A stretch of 64,000 nucleotides of DNA from Pseudoxanthomonas sp. SE1 (GTDB taxonomy: Bacteria > Pseudomonadota > Gammaproteobacteria > Xanthomonadales > Xanthomonadaceae), in contig NZ_CP113783.1 in assembly GCF_029542205.1 (NCBI RefSeq), forward strand, positions 310,001 to 374,000. Direction: 5' to 3'. This document shows, one piece after another, positions 51,549-52,371 of this stretch. The position numbers and the translations under genes are program-made. Each line of letters starts with the position of its first letter. Positions within the stretch are counted from its first letter, which is position 1. The notes beneath the pieces were generated by a model that saw only the letters and a list, made by a program, of their open reading frames with translations, made no database searches and had not been told where the DNA came from.

Positions 51549-51655
51549 ATCGGAACCCAGACGTCACGATAGCGTTGAAGCACATGAGCTACGGACGGTG
51601 GCACGGATTCCGGCAGAGCATCCTCGCCAATCGTTTGATATCGCTGAGCTCTCAT
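51549..51655 (-). pseudogene. 5' end of the IS-split HEPN-like gene
   Basis: ATG at 51655 overlaps the TGA of the protease gene (51652-51655), then MRAQRYQTIGEDALPESVPP and on to DVWVP before the IS. Joined to 50353 minus one TSD copy, the frame continues as IRSFPYLAVDFARVLEYCDA. Total rebuilt length is 1287 nt, an exact multiple of three, with no internal stop. Confidence 0.85.
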
Positions 51656-52371
51656 ACGAGCCCAACGAGTGGAGAGACAAGGATGACGGCCTCTTTGGCA
51701 TGAAATTCCGACACCAGGCCGACCAGTCGGAAAGAAAGGGTCCTACGGGTATCGACCATTAGCTCCATGCATGGTCCGCCACTAATACCGTTCAACTTAG
51801 GTGAGTTGAAGCTACAGCCTTGAGCGTTCTTCAACTTCTTCCTGTCGTAGGAGAACGCCAGATAGCTGGTCAGCGCGCTCTTTGGCTTTGCAGACGACGC
51901 TGAACAGAATATGTTCAATCCATGTCGATCTGTCTTTCCGAACTTGAGCTTCAGCTGATTCTGCGATGCGGGGTAGCCAGATACAACATAGATCCCGGTA
52001 CCCTGCCAGGCCGTCCAGCTCCTTCCTAGGTCGAAGTATCTAACAGAGTCGATCTCGGAACGCGCCAAGTAATCTTCGGTGAGCCTTGCGAAGGCTATGT
52101 CTCTACTAGCATCTCGCTTAAATCGAAGGGCTTTCACGTCGAGCGATCTGCCGAGAACGTTTGCAACACAGGCTTCGTATCGATCTATGTCGTCGACGAC
52201 ATGATCAGCAGTGATGAGGAAAAACTCACCTTGGTGCTTTGCTACGAACCCAGTGCCGAAGCCCTCTGCATCGACAAACGATCTGATTGAGTTTCCAAAA
52301 AAGGGTGCCAACGTGCCTGCCCATTCAATGGCCGCCGACTCAACGCGACCAACTAGTTCATTTGATGTCAC
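51652..52371 (-). CDS. Trypsin-like serine protease (chymotrypsin fold)
   Basis: A 239-aa protein without a signal peptide, so probably cytosolic. The catalytic triad is clear: His in FFLITADHVVDD, Asp in ASRDIAFARL, Ser in LNGISGGPCMEL (G-x-S-G-G). The fold resembles the stripped-down trypsin domains found in bacterial conflict systems, not exported degradative proteases. Translation-coupled to the HEPN-like gene that IS copy 2 has broken. Inference: the protease was paired with an RNase-type effector. Lower GC than core genes. Confidence 0.85.
   Translation of the reverse strand: MTSNELVGRVESAAIEWAGTLAPFFGNSIRSFVDAEGFGTGFVAKHQGEFFLITADHVVDDIDRYEACVANVLGRSLDVKALRFKRDASRDIAFARLTEDYLARSEIDSVRYFDLGRSWTAWQGTGIYVVSGYPASQNQLKLKFGKTDRHGLNIFCSASSAKPKSALTSYLAFSYDRKKLKNAQGCSFNSPKLNGISGGPCMELMVDTRRTLSFRLVGLVSEFHAKEAVILVSPLVGLV

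Follow-up and report, generated by a model that had tools for sequence, protein, structure and literature searches.

The window, a stretch of 64,000 nucleotides from Pseudoxanthomonas sp. SE1 (contig NZ_CP113783.1), contains two overlapping genes on its minus strand, a trypsin-like protease gene (gene A) followed by a gene with an RNxxxH motif (gene B). We think it probable that B represents a family of stand-alone HEPN ribonucleases (RNases) for phage defence that spreads as mobile cargo and resembles the prophage RNase Tha, that A is a separate cargo gene and that the copy of B in the window is dead. The initial annotation had combined A and B into a two-gene, protease-activated RNase system. 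This supposedly new protease–RNase system, attractive but poorly supported, is dropped here, since A and B rarely occur together. What is left is a coherent family with the appearance of a stand-alone HEPN defence RNase on phages and islands.

Judged by sequence, B falls into an undescribed family that numbers ∼ 130 database proteins; the members scanned have no match in Pfam, NCBIfam or PADLOC. A protein search with the C-terminal piece of B (49170..50353, minus strand, 393 open codons) returned 90 proteins at E ≤ 1e-3, including the window's own entry; the rest are for the most part ∼ 430 amino acids (aa) long and 44–70% identical to the piece. A second search, with the profile of a divergent subfamily, listed 73 proteins that partly overlap the first list. 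In both searches scoring was limited to the ∼ 8,000 candidates with the most shared words, and precomputed Pfam domains are absent from all rows of the two lists. When 23 members (set A1) were compared with Pfam at E ≤ 10, four families appeared, each for one member and none convincing (best E 0.08). No match was obtained for three B sequences in NCBIfam or for the window piece in PADLOC; the UniRef name of one relative, P0088, is Apea-like. The family alignment comprises 130 sequences (129 database proteins and the window piece), leaving out the window's own shorter entry (P0001) and two proteases (P0091 and P0092). Of the 125 sequences that have letters at all three motif positions, 123 show the full RNxxxH, in keeping with the HEPN superfamily motif Rx4-6H, in which a polar residue follows R. 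Upstream of it, an acidic residue (E294) is found in 129/130 sequences, followed by N298 in 128/130 and then by R or K in 119/130, which gives Ex4[KR] as against the typical HEPN Ex3[KR].

From an alignment of 82 rows with the intact relative P0022 at its head, AlphaFold2 produced a model with a predicted local distance difference test (pLDDT) score of 87.6. The solved structures nearest to residues 248–410 of this model are HEPN domains of several kinds, namely HepT toxins, sacsin and archaeal HEPN homologues, with Csm6, AbiV and RnlA lower down. Fourteen of the 18 best structure rows are HEPN by title or paper, and we take the remaining four to be HEPN as well. In the model RNxxxH closes the third predicted helix of the C-terminal domain; in the HEPN superfamily the motif stands at the end of the third helix (PMC3710099). 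Foldseek E-values for the model are weak (best 0.21). Profile–profile comparison was insignificant (hhalign 5.0% and 0.2% against HEPN families), as were all sequence-only comparisons, and the HEPN likeness of the C-terminal part is instead seen in the predicted fold. The HEPN assignment is therefore based jointly on the predicted fold, the position of the motif and sequence conservation. Together these give good grounds for regarding the C-terminal domain of B as HEPN, as initially annotated, with a complete Rx4H active-site motif. The N-terminal ∼ 245 residues have no fold match among the structure rows listed, of which at least a fifth span only residues 248–419; this is no proof of a new fold. 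A search of BFVD returned nothing at E ≤ 0.001.

Ten distinct B loci outside the window were compared, on stretches of 8–17 kb (L009, L010, L011, L012, L013, L014, L015, L019, L022 and L032), after redundant copies had been merged (L016 and L026 into L010, L028 and L029 into L011, L027 into L014, L033, L034 and L039 into L019, and L020 into L022). Two of the 10 loci are phage contigs. On L032, B lies antisense in the head module, between terminase/late-activator genes and portal/head-protease genes. On L019 (2972–12013) it stands beside an internal virion protein gene, with a C5 methylase and an Eco29kI-type enzyme on one flank and a trypsin-like gene and an SU10-type adaptor gene on the other. 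At both sites B resembles cargo (moron) genes among head and virion genes. The window copy occupies a defence island, in a stretch poor in G and C (GC-poor) with a Lamassu/ABC-3C-like gene set. Elsewhere B is found with an ABC transporter gene (L009, Stenotrophomonas rhizophila), ParB-like and DUF4238 genes (L010), a Fic gene (L011), an integrase gene (L015) or valyl-tRNA synthetase (L022). We read these sporadic and mixed settings as the spread of mobile cargo on phages or prophages and islands. No neighbour recurs in three or more of the 11 B loci (window included). The DUF4238 gene is possibly carried with B as a cassette: in L010 (8255–9471) it lies downstream of B together with a helix-turn-helix (HTH) gene, in convergent orientation, and at the corresponding position L022 (9346–9881) has a fragment that resembles the L010 DUF4238 protein (50% over 106 residues), along with a short HTH-like match. 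Two of the outside B genes are incomplete. That of L012 ends near the end of its stretch; that of L014 (6941–9115, Xanthomonas phaseoli ATCC 49119) is truncated next to a transposase found repeatedly in that locus, a second inactivated copy besides that of the window. One transposase is common to L014 and the window locus.

Scans of genome contigs found no relative with P0003 and seven with A1. Scans of viral contigs with A1, A4, P0015, A6, A7 and A8 reached only two contigs, and with A3 none. A class-wide search with A5 returned the window's own genome and two weak partial matches. P0022, gene A and the trypsin-like protein of L019 had no match in plasmid or phage records, and P0094 and P0088 none in plasmid records.

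The B gene of the window is split. An insertion of 1,195 bp (50354..51548, minus strand), with termini GGTAATCCCCCC / GGGGGGATTACC (inverted ends GGTAATCCCCCC), separates a 5′ stub (51549..51655, minus strand) from the 393-codon piece that carries RNAFMH. ATCG stands on either side (50350..50353 and 51549..51552, unstranded), a 4-bp target-site duplication. From its transposase-like proteins we take the insertion to be an IS3-like element. A search of its own genome found six full copies at 99–100% identity, window copy included. The flanks were read in three copies, the two others, in the same orientation, having CTCC and CCTT respectively. The near-identity of the copies suggests that the insertion entered a once-whole B recently. 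The start of B agrees with that of its relatives, as the stub aligns with the B profile from position 2 onwards (20.3 and 21.7 bits). Rejoining the stub (107 nt, including one ATCG copy) and the downstream 1180 nt, with the duplication counted once, gives 429 codons including the stop, and the relatives are mostly 427–435 aa long. The 428 codons initially annotated for the motif gene therefore fit both the arithmetic and the relatives, but they do not form one frame in the window. Likewise, the SLRNAFMHANE motif attributed to the interval 51549..52371 is real but lies outside it, in the piece at 49170..50353, ∼ 2.2 kb from the end of A; the interval starts exactly at the insertion edge and contains A and the B stub. 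Because the insertion lies between stub and motif-bearing piece, B is broken here and this copy is probably inactive, although translation from a start inside the C-terminal piece may yield a shorter product.

An intact B protein of ∼ 430 aa would thus comprise an N-terminal domain of ∼ 245 residues and a C-terminal HEPN domain with Rx4H. Most probably, once the N-terminal domain meets a sign of phage infection, the HEPN domain would dimerize and cut RNA, and the cleavage would halt translation and the growth of the phage, much as with Tha. Tha, a HEPN RNase encoded by prophages, has the motif RNSIMH; it is described as being switched on by the tail proteins of an incoming phage and as requiring its histidine (PMC11087260). 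Like Tha-1 and Tha-2 of Staphylococcus aureus prophages, B is a single gene with a C-terminal HEPN domain, an Rx4H motif in RNxxMH form and a phage-borne distribution (PMC11087260). Tha-1, however, has 301 aa and its gene overlaps xis in phage 80alpha, whereas B has ∼ 430 aa and a larger N-terminal part. The two have no significant similarity (hhalign 0.3%, from one sequence and a shallow profile, Neff 2.5). With ApeA and the Apea-like HEPN proteins (PF18739; Anantharaman, 2013) B shares a large N-terminal domain followed by a C-terminal HEPN domain with RNxxxH, but PF18739 is listed for 0/23 members of set A1 and hhalign against two ApeA-like proteins gave 0.2%. Membership of B in PF18739 or another library family was rejected, there being no convincing match. 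HEPN toxins of the HepT/MntA type and AbiV mostly have a single domain and are encoded together with a partner gene. B differs from them in its long N-terminal domain and in lacking a neighbour shared widely among its loci.

Gene A (51652..52371, minus strand; GTG start) encodes a 239-aa protein that matches Pfam Trypsin_2 (PF13365) with E 2.8e-8 and 35 bits (cut-off 27.6). The catalytic triad claimed for it is present in alignment as His57 (in TADHV), Asp91 (SRDIA) and Ser197 (GISGGP), and is conserved in three of three proteins, gene A and both relatives found, P0092 (51% identity) and a protein of locus L025 (40%). The N-terminus, judged by reading the sequence, has no evident hydrophobic signal, and A would be a cytosolic protease, a separate cargo gene rather than an obligatory partner of B. 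A model of A was left unused because its quality was too poor (pLDDT 36.5). The ATGA overlap (51652..51655, minus strand) was confirmed directly, the stop codon TGA of A (51654..51652) sharing bases with the start codon ATG of B (51655..51653). Since A lies upstream and overlaps B, it is probably co-transcribed with the remaining part of B; a promoter scan of 51500–53700 found 0 against 1.9 expected and is uninformative.

The surroundings of A might offer it other partners. Along the minus strand the order is putAbiC/AbiP-like gene, A, B stub, insertion and the rest of B. The first of these (52441..53292, 283 aa, PF16872, from the open reading frame call and Pfam and PADLOC scans) ends 69 bp upstream of A on the same strand and may be the first gene of an operon with it. 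The only A relative with known surroundings, that of L025 (7630–13552), adjoins GAP1-N1, DO-GTPase1, DO-GTPase2 and GASH genes. A could accordingly belong with the putAbiC/AbiP-like gene, in a three-gene operon, or with GTPase-centred conflict systems that use peptidase effectors. We regard this as unlikely: the L025 protease is convergent with the GTPase operon, not inside it, it is one relative only, and no such GTPase-system genes were found among the seven window proteins scanned.

Whether A accompanies B was judged with the A profile on all open stretches of ≥ 60 residues in the 10 outside B loci. None contains a relative of A; scores reached at most 7.3 bits (L010, L011, L014 and L019; E 0.02–0.66), against 434.6 bits for the L025 protein, and tblastn on eight of the 10 loci likewise gave no A relative. 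Conversely, L025 has no B nearby. When 297 genomes of the family, apparently the same set both times, were searched for each gene, A was found in two and B in two, and only the window's own genome was common to both. An active-serine pattern occurs in three stretches of the 10 loci, one of them a credible trypsin-like gene. This gene, on phage locus L019, has His and Asp motifs too, is convergent with B and belongs to a subfamily other than A; its protein has no PF13365 match at E ≤ 0.1. In the window's own genome a PF13365 search gave six matches, three over the cut-off, and missed gene A. Taking six such genes in ∼ 3,900 (a number assumed from genome size), ∼ 0.03 adjacent cases would be expected by chance in 10 loci versus the one seen, under a null that ignores clustering of cargo genes. 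Given L019, there may be a loose link of trypsin-like genes with B. That protease and HEPN family were joined at least twice, through A upstream of B here and the unrelated convergent gene in L019, with the protease an optional trigger or modulator of a self-sufficient HEPN RNase, nevertheless seems improbable to us.

The annotated two-gene system, in which the protease would sense infection, cleave B and free the HEPN RNase, is quite unlikely. Its appeal comes from the arrangement in the window (same strand, ATGA overlap, full triad, full RNxxxH), from the second trypsin-like gene at L019, and from another system in which trypsin-like peptidases are coupled to NucA nucleases (PMC7159879). There, too, a trypsin-like peptidase is encoded next to a nuclease gene, but the nuclease is HNH-type NucA whereas B is HEPN, and the association of A and B is not conserved. 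The initial annotation had named rare joint occurrence of homologues as the observation that would speak against a pair, and this is what the survey found (0/10 outside B loci; no B at L025). The protein searches agree, B reaching 129 database proteins and A one relative. A conserved protease–RNase pair was accordingly rejected. No description of this protease–HEPN pair was found in the literature consulted, including PMC7159879, PMC8195603, PMC11087260 and PMC3710099, which is not proof of absence, and a literature search found no paper combining HEPN, trypsin-like and anti-phage.

It could also be asked whether B is an RNase at all, or acts in phage defence. Its HEPN domain might be an RNA- or nucleotide-binding module, and the scans made gave no match by sequence to characterized RNase families. 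The near-invariant R, N and H of the motif and the upstream Glu are, however, what would be expected for catalysis. In HEPN domains fused to nucleotidyltransferases the motif is reported to be wholly or partly lost, and these domains are taken to bind substrate (PMC3710099). A non-catalytic or non-defence role for B hence appears quite improbable, and a stand-alone defence RNase remains our preferred reading. Antitoxins are often translated first, as A would be before B, and the overlap favours matched synthesis, but a role of A as an accessory brake gained only in this lineage, limiting B or removing its trigger, is very unlikely, since B relatives without A show that no brake is required and nothing indicates contact between A and B.

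Three further features of the island were noted. The left border of the GC-poor stretch has a fragment (46814–47308, minus strand) that resembles the C-terminal part of ComM. A motif search of the window found no ComM N-terminal part; the island may have entered comM. Convergent with gene B is a plus-strand gene (47447–49129) for a 560-aa protein without a Pfam or PADLOC match. Beyond the putAbiC/AbiP-like gene, on the plus strand (53632–57451), lies the three-gene Lamassu/ABC-3C-like set, which encodes a Cap4-type nuclease (LmuA-like), an MC4/LmuC-like middle component and an LmuB-like ATPase.
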